A stretch of 55,909 nt of DNA from Gammaproteobacteria bacterium (GTDB lineage: Bacteria; Pseudomonadota; Gammaproteobacteria; Pseudomonadales; Azotimanducaceae), in the NCBI GenBank assembly GCA_028824555.1, contig JAPPDJ010000176.1, positions 1 through 55,909 on the forward strand, written 5' to 3'. Position numbers and translations under genes: made by a program. The notes beneath the pieces are model-generated. The model was not told where the DNA came from, made no database searches, and worked only from the letters and a program-made list of their open reading frames with translations. The number at the start of each line of letters is the position of its first letter. Position 1 is the stretch's first letter. Below are positions 23,405-50,556 of the stretch, piece by piece.

Positions 23405-23528
23405 CGTATCACGCCCCATCTGTTTGACTTTGCGTCCGCATGGATAGCAGGGAGCTGTTGTCGATATGGACATAGGGCAGGACAAAGCGACGAGTGCATG
23501 ATGGAATCGACCGTGTGCAGGAGGCCGG

Positions 23529-25284: not shown

Positions 25285-26259
25285 TTGAACACACAGAACA
25301 GCGCACCCGTCATCGTCGCGAGTGGTCTAGGCCACACCTACAAGGGTGGCCATACGGCGCTTGTTGGCGTCGACCTTGAGCTTGGGGCGGGGCTCTTCGG
25401 GTTGCTCGGGCCCAATGGCGCTGGCAAAAGCACGCTCATGCGCATCCTCTGTACTCTCCTCGAACCGACCGAGGGTCGGGCTAGCGTGTTTGGGCACGAT
25501 GTGGTGCAGGAGCGACAGGCGGTACGAGGCCAGATTGGCTACCTGCCGCAGGATTTCGGTGGCTGGCGGCTGCATCGAGTGGAAGAGGTGCTCGACACGC
25601 TGGCGCGTCTTTCGGGGATGCGCGAGAAGGCTGAGCGACGTGAACGCGTTGCGGAGGTGCTGGAAGCGGTTGGCTTGTCCGAGGCGGCGCATCGGAAGGT
25701 GAAGAAACTGTCGGGAGGCATGGTGCGGCGCCTGGGAGTGGCGCAGGCGCTGGTGCACGAGCCGCCCGTTTTGGTGGTGGACGAGCCTACCGTGGGTCTC
25801 GACCCCGAAGAGCGCATGCGGTTTCGCCAGTTGATGGCTCGGCTTGGGCGTGACCGCACCATCCTGCTTTCCACGCACATCGTTGCGGACTTGGGCGGCG
25901 GCTGTCGTGAGCTGGCGTTGCTCGATGCCGGTGAGGTGGTGTTCAAGGGCACGCCCGGTGAACTCGTGCAGCAAGCGCACGGCAAGGTGTTCGAGACGAA
26001 GGCGAGCGCGGCCGATGCCGAGCGGATTGAGACGCAGCATGAAGTGGTTTCGCGTCGGGTCGTGCAAGGTGGCGTGGAACTCAGGTTCGTTGCCGCAGAC
26101 GCGCCGACCGGCACCACGCCCGTGACATCGCCGACCTTGGAGGAGTCTTATCTCGCCTTCATGGCAGCCCGAGGCCGTTCCGAAGCCGCGCGCCAGGACG
26201 AACCGGAGGGTGACCCAGCGGAAGGTACGGATGACACCGCCGAAGGGGCCGACAAATGA
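25285..26259 (+). CDS. ABC transporter ATP-binding protein (ABC-2/NatA-CcmA type)
   Basis: Cytoplasmic ATPase of 324 residues. Walker A GPNGAGKST (42-50), Q-loop in LPQDFG (87-92), signature LSGGM (142-146), Walker B VLVVDE (162-167) and switch H198 in LSTH are all intact. The C-terminal 80 residues are an acidic tail. The start is TTG at 25285 behind GGAAATAGGAT. Its stop overlaps the ATG of the permease-peptidase fusion (ATGA), so this is the motor of that permease. First gene of the six-gene ABC/RND locus (25285-40047). Confidence 0.93.
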   Translation: MNTQNSAPVIVASGLGHTYKGGHTALVGVDLELGAGLFGLLGPNGAGKSTLMRILCTLLEPTEGRASVFGHDVVQERQAVRGQIGYLPQDFGGWRLHRVEEVLDTLARLSGMREKAERRERVAEVLEAVGLSEAAHRKVKKLSGGMVRRLGVAQALVHEPPVLVVDEPTVGLDPEERMRFRQLMARLGRDRTILLSTHIVADLGGGCRELALLDAGEVVFKGTPGELVQQAHGKVFETKASAADAERIETQHEVVSRRVVQGGVELRFVAADAPTGTTPVTSPTLEESYLAFMAARGRSEAARQDEPEGDPAEGTDDTAEGADK

Positions 26260-29200
26260 TGCGCCCTGCCACAATCCTTGCAGTCGCGGTTGCCGAGATG
26301 CGCTCGGCACGCCGCCTTGCCCGCACGTGGATCTTCGCGGTGCTGTCGCTCTTGGTGGCCACCATCGCTTTCGGCTATTTCTCCGTCATCCACGGCATGG
26401 CGTCCGGCTATTCAGCCACGGCCGGGTTCGTCGGGGCCCGCTTCCTCATCAGCGCGATGGGCTTTTATCTCTTGTGGATCATGCTATTGGGAATGATCTT
26501 CCTCGCCTTCGACCTGCGCTCGCGCGACACCCGAGAGCGGGTGGCCGAGGTGCTGGACGCGCGCCCATTGAGCAACCTCGAACTCCTGGTCGGTCGGCTC
26601 CTGGGGCTTGTCGTGGTGGGCTGGGTGCCGATGCTGGTGCTGGCGGCGCTGGTGCAGTCGTTCGGGCTCATCGCCGTGGGCACCGATCTTTGGTTTGGCG
26701 AGCCGTTGGAACGCGGTTCGCTAATCGCCTTTGTGCTGGCGGAGGCGCTGCCCTCCCTCATTCTCTGGTGCGCGATCGTGATGCTGCTGACGGTGCTGTT
26801 GCGCAACCGGCTGGTCACGGCACTGGTGGCGCTGGTGTTGGTCGCCACACCCATCGTGGCGTTGACGCTGGTGCCGGCCTACATGAGCCCCGTTGTTTCC
26901 TTCGTGGCAACGCCGTCGCAGTTCCCTTCCGACATCCTCGCAACCACCGCCACGAGCCTCACGCCGCAGACGATGTCGCATCGTCTGGCGATGCTCTTGC
27001 TCGCCGCCGGGTTCGTGCTGTGGGCGGCAGCGCTGTATCCGCGTCGGGACGACGCCTCTCGACCGGTGCAACTCGGGGCTGGGGGCGTCCTCGTTGTGGC
27101 GGCGCTTGGCATTGGCGTCGCTCTCGCGATCCAGGCCGGTGCGGGATTGCGCGACCGGGAAGCGTGGCTGGCAGCACACGAAGTGCATCGAGACACCGCA
27201 CACGCCGACTTGGCGGCGCTGGCGGGCACCGTGCAAGTGGACCCGGGTTCCAATCTCGCCATCGACGTCGAGCTCACCTTCACCGCGCCGCCCGGTTCGC
27301 CGAGCGAACTGGTCTTCAGCCTGAACCCGGGCCTTGAGGTGACGGAAGCTCTGCTCGATGGTCAGCCCGTCGCGCATCGGCACGAGCTCGGGCTGCTCCT
27401 GATTGAGCCATCGAGGCCCCTCTCGGCAGCTTCCGAGCATGTCCTTACGGTGGTCGCTTCGGGCACCCCCAACTCTTGGTTTGGCCATCTGGACGCCGTC
27501 GTGGAACCGTGGAAGCAGACGGGGCAAGACAATCAGATTCAAGTGCTCGGCACCGAGTCCATCGTGTTCGAGGACGAGTACGCAGCCTTGCTGCCGGGCG
27601 CTCGCTGGCTGCCGCACCCAGGCGGCAATGTCACGCCGGCTGTATATGGCGCGCATCGACGCGATACCTTCGATCTCGACCTCACGGTGGAAGTGCCCGA
27701 TGGCTGGCTGGTCGCCGGGCCTGGGCTGCGGGAGGAACTTGCCGAGGGACGATTCCGCTTCCGCCCACCAGCGCCTGTGCCGGCGTTTGCCTTGGTGGTG
27801 GGACGCTTCGAGCGTCGCGCCGTGGAGGTTGCCGGCATCACCTTCGAACTGTTGCTCGACGAAGCGCACACTCGCAATCTCGCCGTGTTTGACGAAGCCG
27901 CCGACGCCGTTGCCGGGCGCTTGACCGAGATCTTCGACGAGGCGGCGAGTCTCGGATTGCCTTATCCCTATCGCGGCCTTTCGCTGGTAGAGGTGCCGAC
28001 GACCCTGCGCAGCTACGGCGGTGGTTGGCGCATGGACACGGCACTGGCGCAGCCGGGCCTCATGCTGATGCGAGAGACGAGCTGGCCCACGGCGCGTTTC
28101 GAGTTCTGGTTCGAAATCATCTCAAGCCGCGAGGGCATGGAGGCGGAGCACGAGGGCGGCGTGCCGGAAGCCAAGGTGCGCGGCCTCGAACGGTTCTTCG
28201 AGAATGATGTCGGCGGCGGCAACATATTTCTTGGGGTGGCGCGCAACTTTCTGGGCTTTCAGACGGCGGCGGCCGGCCCCGGTGCCCCGGCGCTGGACTT
28301 CGTCGCGGAAACGCTGCTGATGCGGCTCCTGAGCGACCGCGACGGGCATTTCTCCGCCCACATCTTCGCCTCCGGCGACAGCTTCGGCGGCGTCATGGCG
28401 CAGACGATGACGACGTTGCTCGGGGGGGAAGGCGAAGACTCCATCGTCGATTCGGTGGCGACTGCAGCGAGCGATCAGCCGTCGGTGTGGGACCGCGCAT
28501 TGGGCGCGCCACTGAGCGAGCTTGATGTCTGGGAGGATCCGGCCAAGGCATTCAATGTCATCACGCTGAAGGGTCGCGCCATCGCCACCGTGCTGCTCGA
28601 CGACCTAGGTCGCGAAGGCGCCGCAGCGATGCTCGCGGAACTGCGCCGTCGCCATGCCGGTGGCACTTTCACGGCGGAGGACTTCCACGCCGCAGCGGCG
28701 GCGAGCGGTGCGGACATCACCTCGCTCCTCGGCGACTGGCTCGACGACGAAGCCATGCCCGGTTTCATCGCCTCGAACGTATCGGTGGTTCGGCTAAGGG
28801 ACGACGAGCTTGGCAAGCCTCGATACCAGATTCGCCTCATCGTGCAGAACGGCGAGCCGGCGCCGGGCCTCGCGCGGGTGCGCTTCTCGACGCGGCAGTC
28901 GGCGGAGGAAGAGGCCAACTGGATTGCCGGCGATCCGCTCAGGATTCCCGGCAACTCTGCGGTGGAGGTGGGCCTCATCGCCGGTGGTGTGCCACAAGCG
29001 GTGGAACTCGAGCCTTACCTATCCCTTAATCGCGACGCGGTTGCGCTCAAGCTGCCGGAAGTGGATCAAGAGAACACGGTGGACGACGAGCCATTCGTGG
29101 GCGCACGGCCTGTCGAAGGGCCGTTGCCGGGGGGGGATCCGCGCGAGATCATCGTCGACGACCTTGATCCCGGCTTTGCCGTGGCGAGCACGGAGGCCGA

Positions 29201-29759
29201 AGGGGATGGCGTTCGGGTCGGCGGCGGGTTGCAGTTCAGCATGGGTTTCGGGCCGGAGGCGGATGTTGACCAAGGCTTGCCCACCTACCAGTCGTTCACC
29301 GCGGCACCGACCGGCTTCTCGCGCCAAGCCGCGTCTTCGGCTTGGGGCCGATACCGTCACACCATCGCCCGGGCCACCACCGGTCAAGGCAACCACGCCG
29401 CCACGTTCGCCGCCGAACTGCCGGAGTCTGGCCGCTGGCGCCTCGCCTACCACTTGCCGGCCATGTCGGGAAGCAGTGGCGCGGTATCCGCTAGGGCGGC
29501 TCGAGGTGCGGTGGTCGTGTCCGCGTCCACAGGAGGCTCTGGCGCCTACTTCGGTCGCCAGGGGACCTACGACATTGCCTTGGAATCGGCGGGGGAGTCG
29601 CAGGACGTGGAGTTTGATGCCTCGGTGGCAGAGTCTGGCTGGAACGATTTGGGCGAGTTTGACCTGCCGGCCGGCGAGGTTCGAGTGAAGGTCACCAATT
29701 CCACGTCGGGCCGGACGGTGGTGGCGGACGCCGTCCGCTGGACGCCGGCGAACGGGTAG
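26256..29759 (+). CDS. ABC-2 permease fused to M1-aminopeptidase-like domain and golvesin-like C-terminus
   Basis: 1167 residues. Residues about 15-290 hold some six membrane helices of an ABC-2 permease. Residues about 310-850 resemble an M1 aminopeptidase: the barrel-like DLDLTVEVPDGWLVAGPG, then YPYRGLSLVEVPTTLRSYGGGW. However, the zinc motif HExxH and its downstream glutamate are absent; the expected site reads TARFEFWFEIISS. The peptidase part is therefore probably inactive and may bind a peptide or lipoprotein. The last 140 residues, ending WNDLGEFDLPAGEVRVKV then VVADAVRW, match the golvesin C-terminal-like beta domain, a ligand-binding module. The length fits known permease/M1 fusions. 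Paired with the ABC ATPase by a 4-base overlap. Confidence 0.85.
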   Translation: MMRPATILAVAVAEMRSARRLARTWIFAVLSLLVATIAFGYFSVIHGMASGYSATAGFVGARFLISAMGFYLLWIMLLGMIFLAFDLRSRDTRERVAEVLDARPLSNLELLVGRLLGLVVVGWVPMLVLAALVQSFGLIAVGTDLWFGEPLERGSLIAFVLAEALPSLILWCAIVMLLTVLLRNRLVTALVALVLVATPIVALTLVPAYMSPVVSFVATPSQFPSDILATTATSLTPQTMSHRLAMLLLAAGFVLWAAALYPRRDDASRPVQLGAGGVLVVAALGIGVALAIQAGAGLRDREAWLAAHEVHRDTAHADLAALAGTVQVDPGSNLAIDVELTFTAPPGSPSELVFSLNPGLEVTEALLDGQPVAHRHELGLLLIEPSRPLSAASEHVLTVVASGTPNSWFGHLDAVVEPWKQTGQDNQIQVLGTESIVFEDEYAALLPGARWLPHPGGNVTPAVYGAHRRDTFDLDLTVEVPDGWLVAGPGLREELAEGRFRFRPPAPVPAFALVVGRFERRAVEVAGITFELLLDEAHTRNLAVFDEAADAVAGRLTEIFDEAASLGLPYPYRGLSLVEVPTTLRSYGGGWRMDTALAQPGLMLMRETSWPTARFEFWFEIISSREGMEAEHEGGVPEAKVRGLERFFENDVGGGNIFLGVARNFLGFQTAAAGPGAPALDFVAETLLMRLLSDRDGHFSAHIFASGDSFGGVMAQTMTTLLGGEGEDSIVDSVATAASDQPSVWDRALGAPLSELDVWEDPAKAFNVITLKGRAIATVLLDDLGREGAAAMLAELRRRHAGGTFTAEDFHAAAAASGADITSLLGDWLDDEAMPGFIASNVSVVRLRDDELGKPRYQIRLIVQNGEPAPGLARVRFSTRQSAEEEANWIAGDPLRIPGNSAVEVGLIAGGVPQAVELEPYLSLNRDAVALKLPEVDQENTVDDEPFVGARPVEGPLPGGDPREIIVDDLDPGFAVASTEAEGDGVRVGGGLQFSMGFGPEADVDQGLPTYQSFTAAPTGFSRQAASSAWGRYRHTIARATTGQGNHAATFAAELPESGRWRLAYHLPAMSGSSGAVSARAARGAVVVSASTGGSGAYFGRQGTYDIALESAGESQDVEFDASVAESGWNDLGEFDLPAGEVRVKVTNSTSGRTVVADAVRWTPANG

Positions 29760-29766
29760 CAGCGCT

Positions 29767-30870
29767 TTGTTGCAGTCGAATGGGAGTGCCCGCGGGCGGG
29801 TCGCCAAGGCGGCTTGTGCGCTTGTGCCCGTCGTGGCGTTGCTGCTTGGCTGTGGCGGACCCGCCGACACTGGCGAGGTCGCGTTCCGCATCCCGGTGGA
29901 AGTGGTGGAGATCGGCACCGGCGATGTCGAGGACTTGGTGCTCACCACCGGCACCCTGAGACCACCGGAAGTGGTCACTTTGAACATCGAGGCGCCGGGC
30001 TACCTGCAGATCGGCCGCGACGCAGCGGGCGAGCGGCTGGTGGAGGGGGCACAGGTGACCCAAGGGCAAACCATCGCCCAGGTGACCGGCGAGGATGCCC
30101 GTCTGCACGCCCGCATCGATTCCACGAGACGAACCCTCAGCAATGCCGGCGCGGAACTCGAACGGCGCCGAGAGCTGTTCGAGGGGGGGCTGGTTGCGGA
30201 GGAGGAACTTCGCCAGAGCGAGGTTGCCTACGAGAATGCCCTCTACGAATTCGAGCGCAGCAAGCTCAACGCATCCAAGGCGACACTCGTCACACCCATC
30301 GACGGCGTGCTGCTGACGCTCGCCCGCAACAACGCCGGCCTGCCGCTGGCGGACGGTCAATTGGTGGCGCCCGGCTTTCAGGTGGCGCGCATCGCCGCGC
30401 TGGACCCACTGATCGCAGACGTGGACCTCGTCGGGCCGGAACTCGCCAAGGTGCGGCCCGGTCTCGATGTGCGCGTCCGCCACTATGCCTTCGCCGCCGC
30501 GGGTCTCACCGGCAAGGTGCTGCGTCTGGCGCCGGAGATGAATGCCACCACGCACACCTTCCGCGCCGAGGTGGCGGTGGACAACGCCGCGCAATTGCTG
30601 CGCCCCGGCATGTTCGTGGAGGTCACCATCATCGCCGAGCAGCGCCTGGAAGTACCGGTGGCGCCCCGCGAGTCGGTGGCGTCCCGCGCCGGCAAGAGCG
30701 TGGTCTTCGTGCTCGACGGCCAGCGCGTCAGCCGCCGCGAGGTCGCCTTGGGACTCGGCAACGACGCCGTGGTGGAAGTGGTGGACGGCCTCGCCGCCGG
30801 CGACCGAATCGTGGTGCGCGGGCTGGAAACGCTGACCGACGGGACGCGAGTGCGCGTGGTCGATTCCTGA
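29767..30870 (+). CDS. RND periplasmic adaptor (membrane-fusion lipoprotein)
   Basis: 367 residues. The N-terminal signal ends in the lipobox LLGC (C29), so it should be anchored by lipid to the inner membrane and span the periplasm. A biotinyl-lipoyl-like half motif (VTLNIEAPGYLQIG), a short coiled-coil hairpin (about 115-155), the second lipoyl half (ATLVTPIDGVLL), a beta-barrel, and a membrane-proximal domain follow in the usual MFP order. Start is one of two adjacent TTG codons (29767 or 29770), 7 bases past the permease fusion. It is the adaptor for the RND pump that follows; an outer-membrane TolC-type gene is not in the window. Confidence 0.9.
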   Translation: MLQSNGSARGRVAKAACALVPVVALLLGCGGPADTGEVAFRIPVEVVEIGTGDVEDLVLTTGTLRPPEVVTLNIEAPGYLQIGRDAAGERLVEGAQVTQGQTIAQVTGEDARLHARIDSTRRTLSNAGAELERRRELFEGGLVAEEELRQSEVAYENALYEFERSKLNASKATLVTPIDGVLLTLARNNAGLPLADGQLVAPGFQVARIAALDPLIADVDLVGPELAKVRPGLDVRVRHYAFAAAGLTGKVLRLAPEMNATTHTFRAEVAVDNAAQLLRPGMFVEVTIIAEQRLEVPVAPRESVASRAGKSVVFVLDGQRVSRREVALGLGNDAVVEVVDGLAAGDRIVVRGLETLTDGTRVRVVDS

Positions 30871-30936: not shown

Positions 30937-33900
30937 TTGTTCGAGTCGCTCGCCGCGCTCGCCACGCGCCGCCCCGTAGCCATCAGCGTCTTTGCCTTGG
31001 CCGTGGCCTTGGTGGGGGTGCTGTCTTGGCGCGAGTTGCCGGTGGATCTCCTGCCGGACCTCGAAAGCCCCACCGTGGTGGTGTCGGTGCGCTCCGGCAA
31101 CCGGCCGCCGGTGGAGATGGAGCAGCTCTATGGCCGCCCGGTGGAACAGCTTCTGTTCACTGTGCGCGGCATTCGCGAGATCAGCCAAGTGGCGCGCACC
31201 GGTCGGCTCATCGTCACGGTCACCTTCGATTGGGACACCGATCCAGACCTCGGCCTGATCGACGTGCAGAAGGCGGTGGGTCCGCTCGAAGCCGATCCCG
31301 AAGTCAACGAAGTGCTGGTGCGCCGGTTCGACCCCCGGCAGTCGCCCATCCTCACCCTCGGCTTGGTGGCACGCTCCGGCCAGCCTGATCTCGCGGAACT
31401 CCGCCGCCTCGCCCGCCGGCAGGTTGCACCGGCCTTGGAGCGGCTCGCCGGCGTTGCCGAAGCGCGCATCACCGGCGGGCGAGAGGAAGAGGTGCGGGTT
31501 CTGGCCGACCGCTACCGCATGGACGCGTTTAGCGTTTCCCTCAAGCAACTCGAAGATCGCTTGCAGGCCGAGAACGTGGACATATCCGCCGGCACGCTGG
31601 AGGAGGGCAGCCAGGTCTTCGTCGTCCGCGGCATGTCCCGCTTCCGCACCGCCGACGATGTGGCGAATGTGGTGGTGCGCTATCTCACCGACGGATCAGG
31701 GGGGCGCCGCAACGCCGTCCGCGTTTCCGACATCGCCGAAGTGCAAATGGTGGCGCGGGAGATCGACCACCTGGTTCGGGTGGACGGCACCGAGGGCGTC
31801 GGCGTTGCCATCTACAAGGAGGCCGGTACCAACACGGTGGCCGTATCGGAGACGGTGCAAGAGGCGCTCACGGGCATCGCCCGAGACTTGCCCAACGTCG
31901 AGGTGCGCGAGATTGTCGATGAAGCCGCCTTGGTGGTGGACGCACTCGACGATCTCGAAACCGCCGCCATCGCCGGCATCGTCCTCGCCGTTCTGGTGCT
32001 GGCGGTGTTCCTGCGCTCCGCCGGAGCGACCTTGGTGGTTGCGACCGCCGTGCCGGTGTCCATCTTCGCGGCTTTGTTCCTGATGCGGCTTGGCGATCGC
32101 AGCTTGAACATCGTCACCCTAGGCGGCCTGGCACTCGGTGCCGGGATGCTGGTCGACAACGCTATCGTCGTGGTGGAGTCAATCTATCGACGACTCGCCG
32201 AGGTGCGCGAGCAAGGCGGCGACGCCGGCGAAATGTCGCAGGCAGCCATCGACGCAGCGGTGGCGCAAGGCACCGGACGGGTGGCCGGTGCCATCACCGC
32301 AACGACGCTCACCACCTGCGTCGTGTTTCTGCCGGTGCTGTTCGTGGAAGGGCTGGCGGCACGGCTCATCGACGGCATCGCCTTCGCCGTGGTGGTGTCG
32401 CTCTTGGCCTCGCTGGCGGTGGCGGTGTTCCTGATTCCTGCGCTTGGACGCTGGTTTCTGCGCCCTGAACGGGCAAGGCCCGGTGCTGCCGGTGGTTCCG
32501 AGGAACCCAAGGGCCTGCTTCAGCGCGCCTATTCCCCGAGCGCGTCGGATGTGGCTGGCGTGCGAGTGCGTCTTGAGCAGTTGGTCTCTGCGTTGCTGCG
32601 ACGACCGTTCTTGGTGGTGTTGGCGGCGGCGGCGCTCGCCGCGGTCGCCATCGCGGGCCTCGCTCGCCTCGGCACCGAACTGCTGCCGCCGGCAGACCCG
32701 CGCCAGTTCTCCGTGCGGGTGGTGGGGCCGTCGGCACAGCGCGTCGAATCCACTTCGCGGGCGGTGGAGGGAATCGAATCGCTCATCCGCGATGCCGGCG
32801 CCGACTCCCTTGCCGCCATGCTGGCGGAAGTAGGCCGCCTGCCGGAGGATGACCGGCTCATTCGCACCGAGCTCACGGAGGAAAACACGGCCAGAGTCAT
32901 CGTGCGCATGACGGCCGGCGGCCCGACCGGGCGTCAGTTGGCGACCCGCTTGGGGCCGGAACTCGAAGGCATGGAAGGTACCGACGTCACCTGGGAGGTG
33001 GAAGGTTCTGCGCTCGCGGATGCCTTGGGTGGGGGCGGGCCGCCGATCACCGTGGAGGTTTCCGGCAACGCCATCACCGAGCTTCGGCGCGCCGCCAGCC
33101 GCGTCAAGGAGCGCTTGGACGCAACGCCTGAAGTGTGGAACGCCCGGTCGTCGTTTGAAGGCGGGCCGCCCGAGCTTCGGCTCACCTTGGACCGCGCCCT
33201 TGCTGACGCCTACGGGATTGATCTCACCGCCCTGTCGCGAGTGGTCGAGTCGAGCCTCGACGGCCGCATCGCGACTACGCTGACCCAAGGTGACGAGGAA
33301 CATCCGGTCACCATCCGCCTGCCGACGCCGCGCCGGGATGCCCTCAGCGATGTGGTCTTCCGCGCCGCCGATGGCCGCCAGATCGCCCTCGGCTCGGTGG
33401 CGCAGTTCAACGAGGTGGAAGGTGCGCGGGAGATTTTCCGCCGCGATCAACGCCGCACGGCGCAGGTGACCGCCCAAGTGGCAGATGGGTTTTCGCAGCC
33501 CGAAGCCATAGCGGCAGTGCGTGCCGCGCTTATCGATGCGCCGTTGCCGCCCGGCATCACCACGAAGCTGCGCGGCGACGAGGAAGAGCGCGCCCGCACC
33601 TTCGGCGAGCTGCAACTGGCCGGCGTGCTGGCTCTGGTGCTGGTGCTGATGGTGCTGGCGAGCGCGTTCGAGTCTCTCAAGCATCCCATTACCGTGCTGG
33701 CGTCCATTCCCCTCGCGCTGATCGGCGTGGCGGTGGTGCTGGTGCCGATGGCCGCTCCCTTGGGCGTGATGGCCATGCTGGGGCTGATCGTCCTTGCTGG
33801 CGTCGCGGTGAACGACGCGGTGCTGCTCTTGGCGACCGCCCGGCAACTCATGGCCGACGGTATTGAACGCAAGCTGGCCTTGGCCCTGGCATCCGGTGTG

Positions 33901-34143
33901 CGCCTAAGACCCATCGTGATGACCACCCTCACCACCGCGCTAGCCCTGACGCCCCTCGTGTTCGGCACCGGCGAAGGCGCAGAGCTGCGCGCCCCTATGG
34001 CGCTCACCATCATCGGCGGCATCATTGCCTCCACCGTGGGCTCGCTCCTGGTGCTGCCTTGCCTCTACCTCCTGCTCGACGATCTGGGTCTCCCGGCATG
34101 GCTGCGACGCCAACCGAAAACCGCGCGGGACGTAGCTTCATGA
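30937..34143 (+). CDS. RND efflux transporter (AcrB/MdtBC type)
   Basis: A proton-driven inner-membrane pump of 1068 residues, the usual size. It has twelve predicted helices in two repeats, each followed by a large periplasmic porter domain. The TM4 proton-relay motif is GAGMLVDNAIVVVES, with one aspartate where AcrB has two. The second repeat shows LGVMAMLGLIVLAGVAVNDAVLL. TTG start with CGGAGG six bases upstream. Preceded by its adaptor and followed, after a repeat region, by the RND-ABC fusion, which suggests the two RND chains may assemble together, as MdtB and MdtC do. Confidence 0.94.
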   Translation: MFESLAALATRRPVAISVFALAVALVGVLSWRELPVDLLPDLESPTVVVSVRSGNRPPVEMEQLYGRPVEQLLFTVRGIREISQVARTGRLIVTVTFDWDTDPDLGLIDVQKAVGPLEADPEVNEVLVRRFDPRQSPILTLGLVARSGQPDLAELRRLARRQVAPALERLAGVAEARITGGREEEVRVLADRYRMDAFSVSLKQLEDRLQAENVDISAGTLEEGSQVFVVRGMSRFRTADDVANVVVRYLTDGSGGRRNAVRVSDIAEVQMVAREIDHLVRVDGTEGVGVAIYKEAGTNTVAVSETVQEALTGIARDLPNVEVREIVDEAALVVDALDDLETAAIAGIVLAVLVLAVFLRSAGATLVVATAVPVSIFAALFLMRLGDRSLNIVTLGGLALGAGMLVDNAIVVVESIYRRLAEVREQGGDAGEMSQAAIDAAVAQGTGRVAGAITATTLTTCVVFLPVLFVEGLAARLIDGIAFAVVVSLLASLAVAVFLIPALGRWFLRPERARPGAAGGSEEPKGLLQRAYSPSASDVAGVRVRLEQLVSALLRRPFLVVLAAAALAAVAIAGLARLGTELLPPADPRQFSVRVVGPSAQRVESTSRAVEGIESLIRDAGADSLAAMLAEVGRLPEDDRLIRTELTEENTARVIVRMTAGGPTGRQLATRLGPELEGMEGTDVTWEVEGSALADALGGGGPPITVEVSGNAITELRRAASRVKERLDATPEVWNARSSFEGGPPELRLTLDRALADAYGIDLTALSRVVESSLDGRIATTLTQGDEEHPVTIRLPTPRRDALSDVVFRAADGRQIALGSVAQFNEVEGAREIFRRDQRRTAQVTAQVADGFSQPEAIAAVRAALIDAPLPPGITTKLRGDEEERARTFGELQLAGVLALVLVLMVLASAFESLKHPITVLASIPLALIGVAVVLVPMAAPLGVMAMLGLIVLAGVAVNDAVLLLATARQLMADGIERKLALALASGVRLRPIVMTTLTTALALTPLVFGTGEGAELRAPMALTIIGGIIASTVGSLLVLPCLYLLLDDLGLPAWLRRQPKTARDVAS

Positions 34144-34240
34144 AGTCGCCGCCGCGCATGGCGAAGCCGCACCGATTGAGTGCTTTGGCTAGAGCCTCAG
34201 GCGGGAGGCGCAGAACCGCCTGCGCGCCTTGCGGCGCGAT

Positions 34241-34412
34241 GGAGGGCGAGACGCCCTCCCTCCAGCGATGCCGAGTCACCGACGCGCAGGCAACAGGCCT
34301 GATGGACCCTCGGAGGGAAGGCATCCTGCCTTCCCCAGGCGCCGATAGGCGCCTTTTCATCGGCACAATGAAGTGCGCTGGCGCGCAGGGAAGGCAGGAT
34401 GCCTTCCCTCCG
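34241..34412. repeat. Cluster of three palindromic repeats between the two RND genes
   Basis: GGAGGGCGAGACGCCCTCCC (from 34241), GGAGGGAAGGCATCCTGCC plus TTCCCC (34312-34336), and its inverted copy (34388-34412). The last two can pair with each other to form a long cruciform of about 100 bases. They fill most of the 340-base gap 34144-34483, which has no gene. They could dampen transcription into the RND-ABC gene. Confidence 0.8.
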
Positions 34413-34483
34413 ACGCTTTCGCTTCGAGCTAAATTAATCAAGCATCAACGCGTTACGAGCTTTGTTCATTGCGAGGCGATGGC

Positions 34484-37400
34484 ATGAGCGATGTGGGAGC
34501 CACACGCCCCTCGTGGATCCCCTCGGTGCGGAGGATCAACTTTGGCGCCATGTTGGACCTGCCCGTGCGGCGGCCCGTGGCTGTGTCGATGGTGTATCTC
34601 GGCATTGTGCTGCTCGGCGTCGTCGGCTGGCAGCGGATGCCGGTGGAGCTTTTTCCCAACCTGAGTGGCGATGCGCTGACGGTGAGCTTCAGCCGGCCTG
34701 GCAGCGAACCGCATGTGGTGGAGCGCGAAATCCTGCTGCCACTCCACGCACGCGTGTCCGGGTTGCCCTTGGTGGCCGAGAGCTGGGGCCAAGTGCGCGG
34801 TTCCGGCGGCAGCTATCGGGTGCGATTCGAGCCGAGCGCCGACATCAAGGTGCGCCAGCTCGAACTCGGCCGCATCGCCGCAGCGATTCAGCGCGAACAG
34901 CCGCGCAACACGCGCATCGACGTTTCCGCCAACGACGCCTCCGCCTTCGGCACCTTCGTGATGACGGTCCACATTGCCGGCGGCGATGGCGACCGCAATG
35001 CGCTGCACGATCTGGTGGAGGAGCTCATCGTGCCCCGCTTCGCCGCCGTGCCGGGGGTGAGCGAAGCCCTCGTCAGTGGAGGCGCCGGGCGGCAGGTGCT
35101 GGTGCGCGTGGACCCGAACCGCACGGCAGCCTTCGGCGTCACCACGGACGACGTGATCGCCGCCGTGCAGCGGAACGTCGGACGGCTTGCCTATCTCGGC
35201 AATCTTGAGGACGAGAACGGCCGCACCGACATCGTCCTCGACGGACGCCCGGCCAGCCTCGACGCACTGGCCGAAGTGCGAGTCGCCGACGGCAAGGAAG
35301 TGAAGCTCGGCCATGTCGCGGCGCTGGAACACGGCACGGCACAGGCGCGTTCGCTGTTCCGGGTCAACGCGGAGCCGGCCGTGGGCGTGTTCATTTTTCA
35401 GGAAGACACCGCCAATCTCGTGCGCCTCGGCAAGGAGTTGCGCGAGCGGGTGGCGCTCTTGCGCGACGAGCTCCGGCCCTTGGGGCTCGATCTCGTCATT
35501 GGCTCCGACGCGGCGCAAGAGGTGGAGGATCAGCTAGGCCGGCTGGTGCAGCTCGGCGCCACCGGCTACCTCATCGCCTTGGGCGTCCTGTTCCTGTTCC
35601 TGCGGCAATGGCGTGCCGTGGCGGTGGTGGGCGTGGCCGTCCCGATAAGCCTGCTCGGCGCGCTGGCGCTGCTCTTCCTGCTGGGCCAGACGCTCAATCT
35701 CATCAGCCTCTTGGGGCTCACGCTTGCGGTTGGCCTTTTGGTGGACAATAGCGTGGTGGTCTATGAAGCCACGCAGCGGGGGCTCGAACGGGGCGCCGCG
35801 CCGGCGGAAGCGGTACGCCGCGGGCTCGGTCGCACCGCCCGCGCCATCGTCGCTGCCAGCCTCACCACTGCGGTGGTGTTCCTCGTGTTGGTGCTGGTGC
35901 CCGTCGCGAGCCCCCAGTTTCGAACTCTGTTCGAGATCGTTGCCATCGCCTTCCTGCTGCCGCTCGGTTCCTCCCTGCTGGTGGCACTGGGGTTGGTGCC
36001 GCTGCTGGCACACCGGCTGGCGTCCTCTGCCGCCGTAAGGGAAGTGCAGGCGGCGCGGTTCCGGCGCGAGGCGCAAGGCGGACTGGCGCGGCCCAACCCA
36101 GCGCGCCTGTACTTCACCGGGGTCGTTGCCGGCGCGCTGAGGCGACCTGCGGGCTGGGTCGCCGGCGTCGTCCTCGCATTTCTGGTGACGCTCTTGATCG
36201 CCGTGCCGTGGGTGTTGGTGCGCACCGGTTCGTCGCCCGCTGCGGAAACCGATTCCGTGGAACTGGTGGCGCGCTTTCGCGCCGGCGCGAGTTCGGTGCA
36301 GGCGATGAGTGGCGCGGTGGAACGCATCGAGCGCGCCGTGCTCGCCATCGAGGGCGTCGAAACGGTGGAGGCACGCATCGAAGAAGACGGCGCCTCCATC
36401 ACCGTGCATCTGCTGGATGCGGAAGAACGCCCCACCACCACCAACGCCGCCCGCGTGCGCGACGTGGCGGAGTCGGCGACGCGCGATGGCCTTTATCTGC
36501 TGCGCCCTGGCGAAGGCGAGTTCGAACAGGACGGCGGTGCCGGCGGCGAGGGCCTGGAAGGGGGTCCCGCGCGGATTGTCTTGTCCGGACCAGACAGCCG
36601 CACCCTGGAACGGCTGGCGCGAGACGTGCGCTTGCGCCTCGAGAGCGTGCCTTGGGTGGACAAGGCCTGGCCCGGAGTGTCGCCGGGCATGGACGAAATC
36701 TGGGTGCAGCCCAACCGCCGCGCCTTCGAGGCCTTTGGCCTGACGCTCGACGACGTGCTGCCCGTGCTGCAACTTGCCGGCCGCGAAGGGCAGCGCAATC
36801 GCAACGGTTATGTGCTGCCGAGTGGCCGCGAGGTGCCGGTGGTGGTCGAGCGGGCCAGCGCTCGGGACTCTGACCTTGGCCTCGGCGATGTCGCTTCCAT
36901 GCGGGTCACCACGGACAGCGGCGTGTTTCCGGTGATGGCTCTGGCCGAAGTGCAGCGGATGCCGCCGCAACCCACCATCGCCCACCACAACGGGCGGCGC
37001 GAATTAAGCGTCTTCTACACGCTCGACCGGCAAGCGCCGGAGACCGGACCGGCGCGGGTTGCCATCGAAGACGACATCGCCGAGTCGGTGCGCTCGGTAT
37101 CGAGACCGGATGGCTACACCGTCGAGGTGGGCGCCGCCGACGAAGACAGTGTCACGGACTGGCTCAAGTCCGTCCTGGTGCCGGCGGTGTTGCTGCTGTT
37201 CCTGGTGCTGGCCATGACCTTCGAGTCGCTGACCATGCCGGTGCTGGTGCTGCTGGCGCTGCCGCTGACGTTGTTGGGCGCGGCGTGGATCCTCGTCATT
37301 TCCGACACACCGCTCGGCTTCACCAGCGTGCTCGGCGCGCTGGTGCTGTTCGGCCTCACCGTCAACCCGGCCATCCTGCTCGTGGATCGGATGCAGCGCA

Positions 37401-39370
37401 AGGCGCTCGACGCCGGTTGGTCGGCAGGGGCTGCGGCTTTTTCCGCGGTGCGAGAGCGCACCCGCCCGGTGCTGATGACCTCCGCTACCACCATCGCCAG
37501 CCTTTGGCCGCTGGCTCTCGTGACGGGTCGCGAGAACGAGATGTGGCCGCCCTTCGCCACGATCGTCATCGGCGGTCTCGTCACCTCCACGTTGCTGACG
37601 CTGCTCGTGATTCCGGTGGGCTACATCCTGCTGCGTCGACTCGATGTGTTGTTCGGCCGGGTGGGCCCTTGGCTGATGATCGGCTGGCTCGGTGCCACCG
37701 CGGCCGTCATGGCGCCGCTGATCCTCACGGAGGTGCTGGCAAGCCTGCTCTGGCAGGTGGTGATCACGCTGCTCGTGGGCGGCGCATTGCTGGCTGTGGC
37801 AGTGATGCTGTTCCGGCGACCTGATCGAATCGAACCCGACTGTTCGGCGGGGCCGCCGGCGTTGGAGGTGCGCTATCTGCACAAAGTCTATGGCTTGCCC
37901 GGCCCGTTGCGCCACGCCGTGCGCGCCCCGCGTGATTTCGTCAACGCCGTGCGCGCCCGGGGCGGCGAACCCCTCGCCCGGGCGGAAGCCGCCGCTCGCC
38001 TGCTGCCCTTGGCGTTGCTGGGGGCGGGAAGTCTCGCGCTCGCCGTCCTCGTGGGCGGCGGCGCCTGGAAACTGGTGTTTGGGCTCATGGCTGCGGGCTT
38101 CGTGGCGCAGGGCATTCGCTCGGTCCGGGTCTGGCGCGTGGGACATGCCAGGGCTGCCGAAACCTCAGGCATCGAAGGCTTGTTAGCTGCGCTGACGCCG
38201 TGGCTGGCGCTCGCAGCCTATGTGCTGACGCTGGTGGTGATGCCGCTCGTCATGGGAGAGGCTGCTCGCGCCAGTCTCGTCTGGCCGGCGTTCGGCAGCC
38301 TCGCAGTGGCCCTAGTGCAGTTCGCCCGACGCAGCGCCGTGCGGCAGCAACGAGGACTGCTGTCACCTCGCGCCCAAGACGGTCCCTTGCGCCATCCGCG
38401 TACGCTCCTGCGCGGCTGGGCGCGGCAGCTCGCAGGGCTCGACTTGCCGGTAGAGCAAGTCACGGCTCTGTCGTCGGTCGCATTCCGCATCGAGCGCGGC
38501 ATGGTGGGCGTCTTGGGACCCAATGGCGCCGGCAAGACCACCCTGCTGCGCCAGCTCGCCGGCATCCTCGACCCCACCCGCGGCACCATTCGCCTCGGGG
38601 GTGTGCCATTGCCGCGCATCCAGCGCCACCTGGCGCGCTGGGTCGGTTACCTTCCGCAGGATTCCGGGCTTCCGGCCGGCATGTCGCCGCGCGAATACCT
38701 GCTCTATTTCGCGGCGCTCTACGACATTCCGGCAACGGAACGCACGGCCCGCGTCGAGTACCTGCTGCGGGAAGTGGGGCTTGCGGACAAGGTGGACGAC
38801 CGCATCGGCTCGCTCTCGGGCGGGATGCGCCAGCGCGTCGCCGTGGCGCGCACGCTGCTGCGCCTGCCGCCGGTCATCATGGTGGACGAACCCACCGCCG
38901 GCCTCGACCCACGCGAACGCATCCGCTTTCGCAATCTCTTGGCGAGCTTGGCCCGTGAGCGCATCGTGCTGTTCTCCACCCATGTGGTGGAGGACGTGGC
39001 CGTGGCGTGCGAACGGGTGCTGGTGCTGGCGCGGGGCCGCCTCGTGTTCGACGGCGTGCCGGGGGAGCTCGCGGAAGTGGCGCGCGGGCGCGCTTGGGAG
39101 CTTGCAGCACCGGCGGACGAGGACTTCGCGCTGCCACCAGGTGCGGTGCTCGCGGAAGAGGCGCCCGGAGAGCCCGGAATGGTGAAGCGGCGCGTTCTCG
39201 CGGATTCGCCGCCTAGAGCCGATGCGCGGGCCATCGAAGCGGGGTTGGAGGACGGCTATCTCTGGCTCATCGGCAACACTCGTGCAACGGAGCCTCCCGC
39301 AGAAGCGGACGACGCTACCGACGTTGCGGAAGGCGACGCTGTGCCCTTGCCACCGGGAGCGCCGACATGA
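34484..39370 (+). CDS. RND transporter-ABC transporter fusion protein
   Basis: 1628 residues. Residues 1 to about 1070 are a full RND pump: TM1 near 30-50, porter domains, and the TM4 motif LAVGLLVDNSVVVYEAT. Two extra helices follow at about 1070-1115. From 1127 an ABC domain begins (LEVRYLHKVYG), but a segment of about 180 residues with some four membrane helices intervenes before Walker A (GPNGAGKTT, about 1345). Then LPQDSG, signature LSGGMRQR, Walker B VIMVDE and LFSTH follow intact. One polypeptide thus has a proton-driven and an ATP-driven module. Start ATG 34484; the frame opens at TTG 34469. It shares a 4-base overlap with the last permease. I found no stop or frameshift at the junctions, so this is a true fusion in this sequence. 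Confidence 0.88.
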   Translation: MSDVGATRPSWIPSVRRINFGAMLDLPVRRPVAVSMVYLGIVLLGVVGWQRMPVELFPNLSGDALTVSFSRPGSEPHVVEREILLPLHARVSGLPLVAESWGQVRGSGGSYRVRFEPSADIKVRQLELGRIAAAIQREQPRNTRIDVSANDASAFGTFVMTVHIAGGDGDRNALHDLVEELIVPRFAAVPGVSEALVSGGAGRQVLVRVDPNRTAAFGVTTDDVIAAVQRNVGRLAYLGNLEDENGRTDIVLDGRPASLDALAEVRVADGKEVKLGHVAALEHGTAQARSLFRVNAEPAVGVFIFQEDTANLVRLGKELRERVALLRDELRPLGLDLVIGSDAAQEVEDQLGRLVQLGATGYLIALGVLFLFLRQWRAVAVVGVAVPISLLGALALLFLLGQTLNLISLLGLTLAVGLLVDNSVVVYEATQRGLERGAAPAEAVRRGLGRTARAIVAASLTTAVVFLVLVLVPVASPQFRTLFEIVAIAFLLPLGSSLLVALGLVPLLAHRLASSAAVREVQAARFRREAQGGLARPNPARLYFTGVVAGALRRPAGWVAGVVLAFLVTLLIAVPWVLVRTGSSPAAETDSVELVARFRAGASSVQAMSGAVERIERAVLAIEGVETVEARIEEDGASITVHLLDAEERPTTTNAARVRDVAESATRDGLYLLRPGEGEFEQDGGAGGEGLEGGPARIVLSGPDSRTLERLARDVRLRLESVPWVDKAWPGVSPGMDEIWVQPNRRAFEAFGLTLDDVLPVLQLAGREGQRNRNGYVLPSGREVPVVVERASARDSDLGLGDVASMRVTTDSGVFPVMALAEVQRMPPQPTIAHHNGRRELSVFYTLDRQAPETGPARVAIEDDIAESVRSVSRPDGYTVEVGAADEDSVTDWLKSVLVPAVLLLFLVLAMTFESLTMPVLVLLALPLTLLGAAWILVISDTPLGFTSVLGALVLFGLTVNPAILLVDRMQRKALDAGWSAGAAAFSAVRERTRPVLMTSATTIASLWPLALVTGRENEMWPPFATIVIGGLVTSTLLTLLVIPVGYILLRRLDVLFGRVGPWLMIGWLGATAAVMAPLILTEVLASLLWQVVITLLVGGALLAVAVMLFRRPDRIEPDCSAGPPALEVRYLHKVYGLPGPLRHAVRAPRDFVNAVRARGGEPLARAEAAARLLPLALLGAGSLALAVLVGGGAWKLVFGLMAAGFVAQGIRSVRVWRVGHARAAETSGIEGLLAALTPWLALAAYVLTLVVMPLVMGEAARASLVWPAFGSLAVALVQFARRSAVRQQRGLLSPRAQDGPLRHPRTLLRGWARQLAGLDLPVEQVTALSSVAFRIERGMVGVLGPNGAGKTTLLRQLAGILDPTRGTIRLGGVPLPRIQRHLARWVGYLPQDSGLPAGMSPREYLLYFAALYDIPATERTARVEYLLREVGLADKVDDRIGSLSGGMRQRVAVARTLLRLPPVIMVDEPTAGLDPRERIRFRNLLASLARERIVLFSTHVVEDVAVACERVLVLARGRLVFDGVPGELAEVARGRAWELAAPADEDFALPPGAVLAEEAPGEPGMVKRRVLADSPPRADARAIEAGLEDGYLWLIGNTRATEPPAEADDATDVAEGDAVPLPPGAPT

Positions 39371-40047
39371 AGGGCCAACTGCAACTGTGGCGTCTGGCCG
39401 CCATCGCCACCGCCGGCCACCGCTTCTGGCTGCTGCCGCTCTTGCCTCTGGTATGGCTGGTGTTGAGCGCTCTCATGGTGCTGGTCGGCTTCGACACGCC
39501 GTACGGGCCGGCCTCGGCACAGGTTGAGTTGATCGGCTTCCCGCTGACCATGCTGGCCGTGTTTCTAGGCTTGCGCGTCATCGCCGGCGAAGTCGACGGC
39601 CGAACGCTGGAGATCGCCTACACCGTGCCGGGGGGCTGCGAGCGGGTCTGGTGGGCCAAGCTGGTGGGTGCCTGGAGCATTCTGCTGGTGGCCCTGGCCC
39701 TCTTGGGCATTGCCACGTGGATCTTCTTCACCCGCTATTCGCCATGGGCACTCTACGGGGCCCTGCAAGGCGCTACGTTCTACCTTGTGTTCGCCATGGC
39801 CATGGCCGCCCTGCTCCGCAGCGAAGTCGCCGGCGCCATGGCCACCGCCGCCGTCCTCGCCTTCAACATGCTGATCCAAGGCGCCCCCATCTCCCCCATG
39901 TGGAACCCAGACGCCCAAAGCCAAGACCCGACTGAACTCCTTGCCCGAACCCTCCAAAACCGCGTCGGCGTCGCCTTGGCCATCGCTGCGATCCTGGCCT
40001 TGGCCTTCATGCGCGCGGGCCGGCGCGAGCGGATGCTTGGGGGGTGA
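39367..40047 (+). CDS. ABC-2 type permease
   Basis: 226 residues with about six membrane helices (near 18-40, 52-68, 97-118, 127-150, 155-170 and 203-218). The sequence VIAGEVDGRTLEIAYTVPG is the cytosolic coupling segment usual in ABC-2 permeases. It starts inside the stop of the RND-ABC fusion (ATGA), so its ATPase is most likely the ABC module of that fusion. Substrate unknown. Confidence 0.85.
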   Translation: MKGQLQLWRLAAIATAGHRFWLLPLLPLVWLVLSALMVLVGFDTPYGPASAQVELIGFPLTMLAVFLGLRVIAGEVDGRTLEIAYTVPGGCERVWWAKLVGAWSILLVALALLGIATWIFFTRYSPWALYGALQGATFYLVFAMAMAALLRSEVAGAMATAAVLAFNMLIQGAPISPMWNPDAQSQDPTELLARTLQNRVGVALAIAAILALAFMRAGRRERMLGG

Positions 40048-42463: not shown

Positions 42464-43477
42464 CTACAGCCGATATACGCGCGCCGCCGTTCCGTAGAAC
42501 ATCGCGTGCTTTTCGTCCTCGGTGAAGTCGGCGACGATCTTCTTGAGCCCGTTGAAGAGCACCTGATAGGAAATCGACAGGCGATCCACCGGAAAGTTGC
42601 TCTCGAACATGCAGCGGTCTGGCCCGAAGCACTCGATCGTGTGCAGGTAGTAGCGCCGTTGCGCAGCGGCGAATTCGTCCGAGGTGGGCGGACGTTCGGC
42701 GCGGTCCCAGCCGAAGCCGTTGTCCGGCATGGCGAGACCGCCGATCTTGGCGACCACATTCGGGCACCCGGCGATTGCGGCGATGTCCTCCTTCCACTGC
42801 GCGAAGATCTCCTCCTGACGGCCGGCATAGGCGCCGACGCCCAAGGGCGTGCCGAAGTGGTCGAGCACCATCGTCGTCTCTGGGCAGGCGCGGGCGAGCT
42901 CGAGATAGTCGCGATTCTGGTGAAAGAAGTGCCAGGTGTCGTAGGTGTAGCCGAGCCGGCCCAAGGTGCGTACGCCGGTGCGGAAGTCCTCGCGCGGGTA
43001 GGGGCAGGGCCAGCCGCGACCGGCATTGGTCAGGGTGCCGGTGGAGTCGCTCGGCCCCGCATGACGGATGCCACGAAAAAGGCCGTTGCCGGCGCTCTCG
43101 TGGGCGGCGAGCACCTCTTCGACCGCATCGCCCCGGGTCAGATCGGCATGGCTGACGATGCCGGCGATGGTGGCGCGGCCTGCCGCCTTCGCGCTCTCGG
43201 CCGCGACACCGGCGACGTACTCGGTCTCGCCCACCGGGCGCAAGTGCTCGGGGCCGTCGGTGCGGTAGCCGGAGTGGCAGTCCACGAACACCGTCTTCTC
43301 GATGTTGTGCCCGGAGCCCGTGTCGGCCCAGAGGTCTTCGAGCACGTAGCGGCGCCAGTTGCCGGCCGTTTCCCACATGTGGTGGTGCGGATCGACGATT
43401 GGCCGATCGGGTTCGATGATTTCCTCGGTGACCGAGGCAAGCCATTCGTCGGAACCGGGCTTTGGCATGGCTGGCAT
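42464..43477 (-). CDS. Amidohydrolase family protein (amidohydrolase 2, TIM barrel)
   Basis: 337 residues. The metal-binding VDPHHHMWE (28-36) starts the barrel. Later IAGIVSHADL, VLDHFGTP with the fourth-strand histidine, and FESNFPVD near the end are typical of the amidohydrolase-2 group that acts on lactones and small cyclic or aromatic acids. Substrate not deducible. Transcribed away from the ankyrin gene (60-base gap) and first in an operon with the CBS and nucleoside-hydrolase genes. Confidence 0.88.
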   Translation of the reverse strand: MPAMPKPGSDEWLASVTEEIIEPDRPIVDPHHHMWETAGNWRRYVLEDLWADTGSGHNIEKTVFVDCHSGYRTDGPEHLRPVGETEYVAGVAAESAKAAGRATIAGIVSHADLTRGDAVEEVLAAHESAGNGLFRGIRHAGPSDSTGTLTNAGRGWPCPYPREDFRTGVRTLGRLGYTYDTWHFFHQNRDYLELARACPETTMVLDHFGTPLGVGAYAGRQEEIFAQWKEDIAAIAGCPNVVAKIGGLAMPDNGFGWDRAERPPTSDEFAAAQRRYYLHTIECFGPDRCMFESNFPVDRLSISYQVLFNGLKKIVADFTEDEKHAMFYGTAARVYRL

Positions 43478-43536
43478 TCCTTGCTTTTGGAGCGGACGGG
43501 CATGGTACGACGATTCAAAGCGTAGAATCGCCGGCG

Positions 43537-44661
43537 ATGGACGGCGAGACGACGGTGCGCTCCCTGTTGACGGGGAAGACCAGCGACTTCCTCAAGATCG
43601 GAGTGGGCGCTGCCGGGCGCGGAGACTTGGCGACCTTGCAGGCAGTACTTGCGGTGCAGCCAGACTGGATCACACGGATCGGCTCCCACGGCCGCACGAT
43701 GCTCTGGGAAGCGGCATACCGCGGCCGGCTAGAAACCGTGGCGCATCTCGCCGAGCGTGGCGCTGACATCGAGGCGCGCGGCTGTCACTTCACGCCGCTC
43801 CTGGTGGAGATCAGCCCCTATTGCGCTGCGCGCCATCGCAAGCACGAGGCGGTGGCGGAGTTGCTTCTCGCTCGCGGCGCCTTGGTCGACATCCTCACCC
43901 ATGCTTATCTCGGCGACGGCGACAGCGTGGCAGCGCGGCTCGATGACGATCCAGCGCTTGCCACCGCCGAGGTGCCGCAACACGACCCCAACGTCCGCGC
44001 CACGGTGCTGCATTACGCGGTTGCGGCAGGGCATCTCGACATCGTTCGGATGCTGCTCGCACGCGGGGCGAAGCCGGCGCCCTATTCGCTTTGGCTCACC
44101 CGCTTCGCCATCTGGCGCGAACGCGCCGACATCCTGCGCGAACTCATCGGTGCCGGGATGCCGGTCGAACCGCAGGCTGTTCCCCGCGCCGGAGTCCGTA
44201 GCCGTGACGTGCTCGATGTATTGTCTGCCGCCGGCGTCGCGGACGACCCCGACCGTGCCGAGGGTGGCTGGCCGCCCATTGTCTTTCAGTCGCGCGGCGA
44301 CCGAGGCGGCAGCGTCGAACGAGTGCGCGACCTGATCGAACGCGGGGCGGACGTGAATGTCACCAACCACAAGGAGCAGACTGCACTCCATTGCGCCGCC
44401 AAGGCCGGCTTCGTGGACATCGTGGAGCTCCTGCTCGCGCATGGCGCCACGGTGGACGCGGCGGACGCCACCGGCGCAACACCCTTGGCGACGGCGCTGC
44501 GTTCCACGGCGAAGGACAAAGAACGTCTTCTGGCTGTGGTGCGCCGACTGTTGGCGGCGGGCGCCGATCGGCACCACGCCGACCGGCAAGGCCGCACCCC
44601 AGCCGACATCGCATCCCGCAAGCGCGATGGCCGCTGGGCTGCGGCGCTGGAGATTGGGTGA
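43537..44661 (+). CDS. Ankyrin-repeat protein
   Basis: 374 residues with five or six ankyrin units. Examples are GRTMLWEAAYRGRLETVAHL with ERGADIEAR, ATVLHYAVAAGHLDIVRMLL with ARGAKP, QTALHCAAKAGFVDIVELLL with AHGATVDA, and a C-terminal GRTPADIA unit. No signal peptide, membrane helix or catalytic domain. Ankyrin proteins bind other proteins; partner unknown. Start at ATG 43537 (MDGETTVRS); the frame upstream to 43462 overlaps the divergent amidohydrolase and is less likely. Confidence 0.85.
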   Translation: MDGETTVRSLLTGKTSDFLKIGVGAAGRGDLATLQAVLAVQPDWITRIGSHGRTMLWEAAYRGRLETVAHLAERGADIEARGCHFTPLLVEISPYCAARHRKHEAVAELLLARGALVDILTHAYLGDGDSVAARLDDDPALATAEVPQHDPNVRATVLHYAVAAGHLDIVRMLLARGAKPAPYSLWLTRFAIWRERADILRELIGAGMPVEPQAVPRAGVRSRDVLDVLSAAGVADDPDRAEGGWPPIVFQSRGDRGGSVERVRDLIERGADVNVTNHKEQTALHCAAKAGFVDIVELLLAHGATVDAADATGATPLATALRSTAKDKERLLAVVRRLLAAGADRHHADRQGRTPADIASRKRDGRWAAALEIG

Positions 44662-49858: not shown

Positions 49859-50101
49859 ATGTCCATTCTGGAGGAGGAAATCGCAGCGTATCAAGCGCAG
49901 CAGGATGACCTTGAGGCAAGCCACCGAGGCAGATGGGTTCTGTTTCATGGCAGCACGAGAGTCGGCATTTACGACACATTCGAGGAAGTCTCGACCGATG
50001 CGTTGCGCAAATACGGTCGTGGCCCATACTTGATTCGAGAAATCGGCGCAGTACCCGCGCCGCTTCCAGCAATTCTACAGCGAGCAGCGTCACACGGATG
50101 A
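49859..50101 (+). CDS. Small conserved protein (DUF5678-like)
   Basis: 80 residues, soluble. The core GRWVLFHGSTRVGIYDTFEE, then a helix, then KYGRGPYLIREIG matches a small family I know as DUF5678-like, of unknown function, often encoded beside an aspartic-protease-like gene. GGAG nine bases before the ATG. Its TGA overlaps the ATG of the retropepsin gene (ATGA), so the two are made together. Confidence 0.7.
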   Translation: MSILEEEIAAYQAQQDDLEASHRGRWVLFHGSTRVGIYDTFEEVSTDALRKYGRGPYLIREIGAVPAPLPAILQRAASHG

Positions 50102-50556
50102 GCCCCCTTTCCGTTGAGTTGAGGAACTCGTCCGATGGCCTTTTGGCCACCGGGCCATTATTGCCCATTCAGATTGGCTTGGATGAGACCTACGAGCCGG
50201 GAGGCCTTTGGGAGTCGTCAGCGCCTCTGCTATCGAGAAGCGAGGGCGCCGACGCGCTCATCGACACCGGTGCTCGCGTGAGCTGCATCGACACAGGCTT
50301 GGCCGAGCGGCTGCGTTTGCCGATCGCTGACGAAGATGCGCTTCGAGGTCTGGTTGGCTCACCGATAAGCGTGAGGACCAGGCTCGGCCATCTGGTCGTC
50401 ACCGAGCTGCAAATCATCCGACCCTTGCGCTTCTATGAAGTGGACCTGTCGTCTTGGCTCTCCCATGAGGTGCTTCTTGGCAGGGACATGCTCGAGGGGT
50501 GCCAGATGCACTACGACGGGGAGAGCGGCAACGTTACCGTCGCCCGCCGCAGTTAG
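50098..50556 (+). CDS. Retropepsin-like aspartic protease domain protein
   Basis: 152 residues. ADALIDTGARVSCID contains the aspartic-protease triad DTGA with D56 as catalytic residue. The later VVTELQIIRPL and SWLSHEVLLGRDMLEGCQM complete the single-domain retropepsin pattern, so it should work as a homodimer. No signal peptide or membrane helix, so cytoplasmic. Translationally coupled to the small gene upstream, whose product may be its partner, inhibitor or substrate (inference). Confidence 0.78.
   Translation: MSPLSVELRNSSDGLLATGPLLPIQIGLDETYEPGGLWESSAPLLSRSEGADALIDTGARVSCIDTGLAERLRLPIADEDALRGLVGSPISVRTRLGHLVVTELQIIRPLRFYEVDLSSWLSHEVLLGRDMLEGCQMHYDGESGNVTVARRS

Follow-up and report, generated by a model that had tools for sequence, protein, structure and literature searches.

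A conserved fusion of a complete RND pump with an ABC ATPase whose fold appears to be opened by a four-helix insert

We analyzed a 55,909-nucleotide stretch of DNA from a Gammaproteobacteria bacterium (contig JAPPDJ010000176.1, hereafter the window), in which gene E (34484..39370) encodes a natural fusion of a complete resistance-nodulation-division (RND) pump and an ATP-binding cassette (ABC) ATPase in one chain of 1628 residues. Gene E and the neighboring genes A–D and F all lie on the forward strand. The frame of gene E contains no internal stops, and an initial annotation, made from the sequence alone, had placed its ends correctly; the order of parts read at that time (RND pump, two helices, the motif LEVRYLHKVYG at residue 1127, about four helices, Walker A at residue 1345 and a full set of ABC motifs) is borne out by Pfam, hydropathy and motif reading. 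The RND permease domain (PF00873, ACR_tran; residues 23–1050, 34550..37633) covers profile positions 1–1020 of 1021 with an E-value of 2.3e-143, and is followed by two extra transmembrane helices (TM13–TM14; residues 1060–1111, 37661..37816), recognized from the hydropathy averaged over the family and from the charges of the loops. LEVRYLHKVYG (residues 1127–1137, 37862..37894), the first ABC strand together with its A-loop, is identified by a profile match, invariant residues and a strand in the predicted model. It is separated from the second ABC strand (residues 1323–1336, 38450..38491; strand 273–286 in the model of a piece starting at residue 1051) by about 185 residues with four helices, an insert (residues 1138–1324, 37895..38455) defined by hydropathy and a positive-inside pattern. 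The four helices fall within residues ∼1170–1281, all helix borders having been set by hand on the family-mean hydropathy. The ABC_tran domain (residues 1331–1472, E-value 2.4e-28) contains Walker A, GPNGAGKT (residues 1345–1352, 38516..38539), and motif reading places the Q-loop region at 38642..38662, the ABC signature LSGGMRQR at 38813..38836, Walker B with the catalytic Glu at 38873..38896 and the H-loop STH at 38975..38992.

We fetched 27 related loci: 20, a further 5 (2 of them from outside a sample of 146 relatives) and the loci of two named metagenome-assembled genomes (MAGs); six other genomes positive for gene E stand outside this set (G002, G004, G043, G062, G070 and G082). An intact frame of ∼1600 residues with an identical order of parts is present in 25 of the 27, at identities down to 47%, which is the homologous domain order that the initial annotation had proposed to look for. 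The two MAGs, Gammaproteobacteria bacterium SB0665_bin_27 and SB0662_bin_60, encode proteins 98.8% and 97.1% identical to that of the window, while the other members are ∼47–60% identical, the 47% member (L061) belonging to a different order within the class. The initial annotation had named a frameshift or assembly join near 37.8 or 38.4 kb as a possible flaw; this is ruled out because the junctions recur in 25 of the 27 related loci. The window genome is a draft in 182 contigs and one related locus (L064) really has a frame break in its ATPase part, but an assembly join, frameshift fusion or chimeric contig is exceedingly improbable for a layout that is also intact in the single-contig genomes G012, G013 and G075. 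The remaining locus, L063, ends at a contig end. In L064 (genome G001) the first frame matches up to residue 1395 and another frame from residue 1439, which may reflect decay or an assembly error. The comparisons below use 26 intact proteins, namely the 25 fetched and that of the window.

From the start of the first strand to Walker A we count 218 residues in gene E and 211–228 across the 26 proteins, compared with 31–39 in 22 other ABC ATPases; the initial annotation had assumed a usual spacing of about 30. Strand 1 therefore does not stand directly before strand 2, as is expected of an ABC domain; the first strand itself and the A-loop aromatic residue are present. In a first-strand profile scan that considered the two best sites per protein, the region 1127–1137 was the top match in all 26 proteins, and the second-best site never fell inside the 290 residues ahead of Walker A. 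Leu1132, Lys1134 and Tyr1136, the last being the A-loop tyrosine, are invariant in a 21-row alignment. The aromatic A-loop residue of ABC domains stacks on adenine (PMC7756269), which would explain why the first strand has been retained. The strand is conserved better than the insert, in which only 5 of 180 positions (1141–1320) are invariant in the same alignment; conservation within gene E is highest in the ATPase (79 of 187 positions invariant in 1354–1540), and the RND part has 157 of 1028 positions invariant. In the predicted fold of the piece from residue 1051, LEVRYLHKVYG forms a strand that occupies the first-strand place, so that prediction of the C-terminal piece alone, a check suggested at the outset, puts the motif inside the ABC domain and not outside it, where it would have spoken against the original interpretation. 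Conservation, profile scan and predicted fold thus support one of the two readings first offered, in which the inserted membrane helices form a loop out of the ABC fold. The ATPase then appears to be one complete ABC domain, with the loop leaving it between strands 1 and 2.

The other reading, in which the early strand is a relic, residues 1060–1320 form a second permease and the ATPase behind them is self-sufficient, we regard as very improbable. ABC-2 permeases usually have six helices, the number obtained by adding the two extra helices to the four of the insert. Without residues 1127–1137, however, the ATPase of all 26 proteins would have no first strand or A-loop; the strand is conserved where the insert is not, the model places it inside the ABC fold, and the insert shows no detectable similarity to the permeases of the operon. 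Profile comparison of the linker or the insert with gene F and with the membrane part of gene B gave E-values of 0.14–0.35 (probability <1%), and the two extra helices alone gave 0.039–0.097 (probability ≤1.3%). A hidden ABC-2 permease made of the two plus four helices was considered, and the comparison with F and the N-terminal part of B returned nothing convincing, which is absence of evidence only, as the positive control, the B part against F, was itself weak (E-value 0.01, probability 4%). Nor did the window insert match any Pfam family at an E-value of 0.1. Six families reached E-values ≤0.1 in the family, none of them in more than 2 of 19 members, and were judged chance matches of hydrophobic helices, the best being UbiA (0.001, one member) and HlyIII (0.0036, two members).

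Walker A, the Q-loop, the signature, the Walker B Glu and the H-loop are each present in all 26 proteins, and the better sequence matches of the ATPase include GldA, DrrA and ABCA-type proteins. On the RND side, TM4 Asp421, which we take to correspond to AcrB Asp407, is likewise kept in 26 of 26. Position 961 in TM10, presumably that of AcrB Lys940, is Asn and not Lys in every one of them. We considered whether this Asn signals a loss of proton coupling with ATP in its place, and rejected the idea: among 17 other RND proteins fetched from the window genome (part of its set), the TM10 residue is Asn in 15, Lys in 1 and Glu in 1. The TM10 Lys thus appears to mark AcrB-like pumps and not RND proteins in general. 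Because the TM4 Asp is kept in all 26 proteins and also in all 17 of these other RND proteins, proton coupling of gene E is probably retained. Since the motif sets of the ATPase and of the RND part are both conserved, two energy sources in one chain, which the initial annotation had considered mechanistically new, are plausible on sequence grounds.

Gene E stands in the order A–F. Gene A (25285..26259) encodes an ordinary ABC ATPase without the insert (PF00005; alignment). Gene B (26256..29759) encodes, by inspection, a hydrophobic, permease-like N-terminal part and a large soluble part with a golvesin C-terminal domain (PF25275); it gave no ABC-2/M1 family hit, and may be an ABC-2/M1-like protein. 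Gene C (29767..30870) encodes a HlyD-type membrane fusion protein (PF16576, PF13437), gene D (30937..34143) a second RND permease (PF00873) and proposed heteromer partner of gene E, and gene F (39367..40047) a small, hydrophobic, ABC-2-like permease of 226 residues with a weak PF12679 match, the start of which overlaps the stop of gene E (ATGA). The 340-base gap between D and E (34144–34483) contains, on visual inspection, GGAAGGCAGGATGCCTTCC-like segments that are inverted and repeated and may form a repetitive extragenic palindromic (REP)-type element or a terminator. An F match lies after E in all 27 loci (cut in L050), and D lies upstream of E in 22, with L063 cut by the contig end. Four loci, all from one genus (L032, L034, L038 and L062), have E and F without an adjacent D; these genomes carry D orthologues elsewhere (61–64% identity), and the scanned neighbors of E and F in L034 and L038 are unrelated enzymes and a carrier. 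All six genes occur in order in ten loci, and L064 keeps this order with a shortened A; L029 has its A behind F, with no B found at the locus, and in L033 and L039, B is on the opposite strand. Near the operon, genome G006 carries an additional copy of F that is fragmentary (C87:23681-24122).

A linker query matched 32 of the 146 relatives, the window genome included, in 8 of 85 genera. Gene E is thus found in 32 relatives, F in 31 and D orthologues in 31 (identity ≥59%, E-value limit 1e-150; not counting G112, which matches at 36%), and every genome with F and every genome with D also has E. E, D and F therefore form an all-or-none set, broken only by two incomplete genomes whose linker matches are only partial or at an edge: G082 (77% complete, 680 contigs), with E and no F found, and G043 (85% complete), with a partial E match and no D found. 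All three genes are absent from G003, a 98% complete genome that shares its genus with an E-bearing one. Shared ancestry inflates these counts, and the loss of the genes as a block is informative. Gene B is more widespread than E (37 of 146 relatives, three of them weak), with several paralogues in many related genomes. Further afield, the linker profile matched at least 8 of 390 genomes across the order (the window genome, six known to carry E, and G410), at least 2 of 369 across the class (the window genome and G792), at least 2 of 398 across the phylum (the window genome, plus one match that is weak and partial, E-value 4e-4) and at least 1 of 20 in a class sample centered on G792 (G792 itself), all being lower bounds with at most five or six candidates scored per genome. 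There was no match in plasmids, and a scan of named genomes with a single sequence in place of an alignment found only the two near-identical MAGs.

We lean, by a modest measure, toward a model in which an ABC exporter composed of the ATPase of E and the permease F is tethered to an RND heteromer of D and E, with an ATP-driven step followed by a proton-driven one. In this model, the ATPase would most likely energize the adjacent F, and F would carry a substrate across the inner membrane or out of it; the RND part of E, together with D and the fusion protein C, would then use the proton gradient to take the substrate through the envelope. Both termini of the insert are predicted to be cytoplasmic, which would hold the ATPase at the membrane next to the RND transmembrane domain through three attachment points. 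Two ATPase domains are required in an ABC transporter, whereas RND pumps assemble as trimers; with two E and one D, a heterotrimer would reconcile these requirements by supplying precisely the pair of ATPase domains that an ABC dimer calls for. MdtB2C1 provides a precedent for such a 2:1 stoichiometry (PMC7015380). The membrane topology, protein contacts, stoichiometry, direct substrate hand-over and use of both energy sources are what we infer for this system.

It is unlikely that the fused ATPase instead acts directly on the RND part, yielding an ATP-driven or ATP-gated RND pump with F as an accessory. The covalent fusion through two helices, with three tethers by predicted topology, and the invariant catalytic motifs speak for such a pump, but the tight linkage of F to E in all 27 loci and in co-occurrence is as expected for a cognate permease, and the conserved TM4 Asp points to proton coupling that is probably retained. 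Distinctly unlikely is a structural or regulatory role, with ATP binding assembling or gating the complex without powering transport: a catalytic set is by itself no proof of turnover and gene A already provides an ordinary ABC ATPase, yet the Walker B Glu, signature and H-loop are kept in all 26 proteins, and no other part of gene E is as well conserved as the ATPase.

Several observations weigh against the tethered exporter that we prefer. Gene linkage proves neither that the ATPase of E drives F nor that E and D share a trimer. In the window, F falls below the Pfam cut-off (PF12679, ABC2_membrane_2; 20 bits versus 27.2), F of L034 matches no family, and F of L049 (genome G014) is spread over two overlapping frames, through decay or assembly error. 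The structural model has a mean predicted local distance difference test (pLDDT) score of 60.7 and a predicted template modeling (pTM) score of 0.48, with the insert mostly <50 and the strand-1 blocks at 67 and 61; because it is good for the ATPase core only, it leaves the placement of the insert unpredicted. Foldseek alignments to LptB (4p31) span ∼210 columns, and reach to the first strand is shown by VIA-align only. The TM10 Asn, which might be added to this list, argues neither way, because 15 of the 17 other RND proteins share it.

Primary transport on ATP and secondary transport on protons normally reside in separate proteins. We tentatively entertain, while doubting it somewhat more than we credit it, a dual-energy machine in which two fusion subunits and one D, with a built-in ABC dimer, would apply ATP (via F) and then the proton gradient (via the RND parts) to one substrate, the ATPase fold being opened between strands 1 and 2 to hold four helices that would fix it next to the pump. 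A conserved fusion of this kind offers a way to test whether a single machine can couple the two energy sources, and how a pump built as a trimer makes room for an ATPase that works as a dimer. It further suggests that four membrane helices can be inserted between strands 1 and 2 of the ABC fold and be retained in evolution, a point of relevance to the folding and membrane attachment of ABC domains.

Elsewhere in the window, a gene on the reverse strand (20936-23485) encodes a TIR domain with weaker STAND-type nucleoside triphosphatase matches behind it, possibly a defence or signalling protein. An ankyrin-repeat protein is encoded downstream of the operon (43462-44661), and another bacterial protein (49933-50556) has an aspartyl protease domain of retroviral type that narrowly exceeds the Pfam cut-off.

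The RND and ABC parts of gene E belong to known families; neither their joining in one chain nor the split ATPase turned up in the open-licence literature searched. In the titles, abstract openings and passages covered, including those of PMC8277102 and PMC3924187, we found no description of an RND-ABC fusion or of an insert in the ABC fold, and no experimental study of any member of this family. The ATPases of the ABCA, DrrA, GldA and NosF type are sequence relatives of the E ATPase, which has all the catalytic motifs, but in E ∼185 residues with four helices separate strands 1 and 2, and the N-terminal fusion partner is an RND pump. MacB, of MacAB-TolC, differs in having a normal N-terminal ATPase, its own four-helix permease and no RND part. 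Gene B resembles the ABC-2 permease/M1 peptidase fusions (Transporter Classification 3.A.1.145), which passages of PMC3924187 describe as a permease part joined to a large soluble domain; B lacks HEXXH, and is a neighbor of the fusion and not the fusion itself. The RND part of E has the full ACR_tran domain and TM4 Asp of AcrB/OqxB-type HAE1 pumps, and differs from them in its C-terminal ABC ATPase and in having Asn at both the second TM4 Asp and the TM10 Lys positions. Its best solved sequence relatives are 7cz9, which we take to be OqxB, and MdtB (9lyq), and MdtB and MdtC are not known to carry an ABC domain. MdtBC and MuxBC are encoded by two adjacent, different RND genes together with a membrane fusion protein (PMC7015380). 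D and E are similarly two different RND subunits, encoded together in 22 of the 27 loci and, in the window, with the fusion protein C, but E is set apart from MdtBC by its two extra helices, its split ATPase and the linked permease F.
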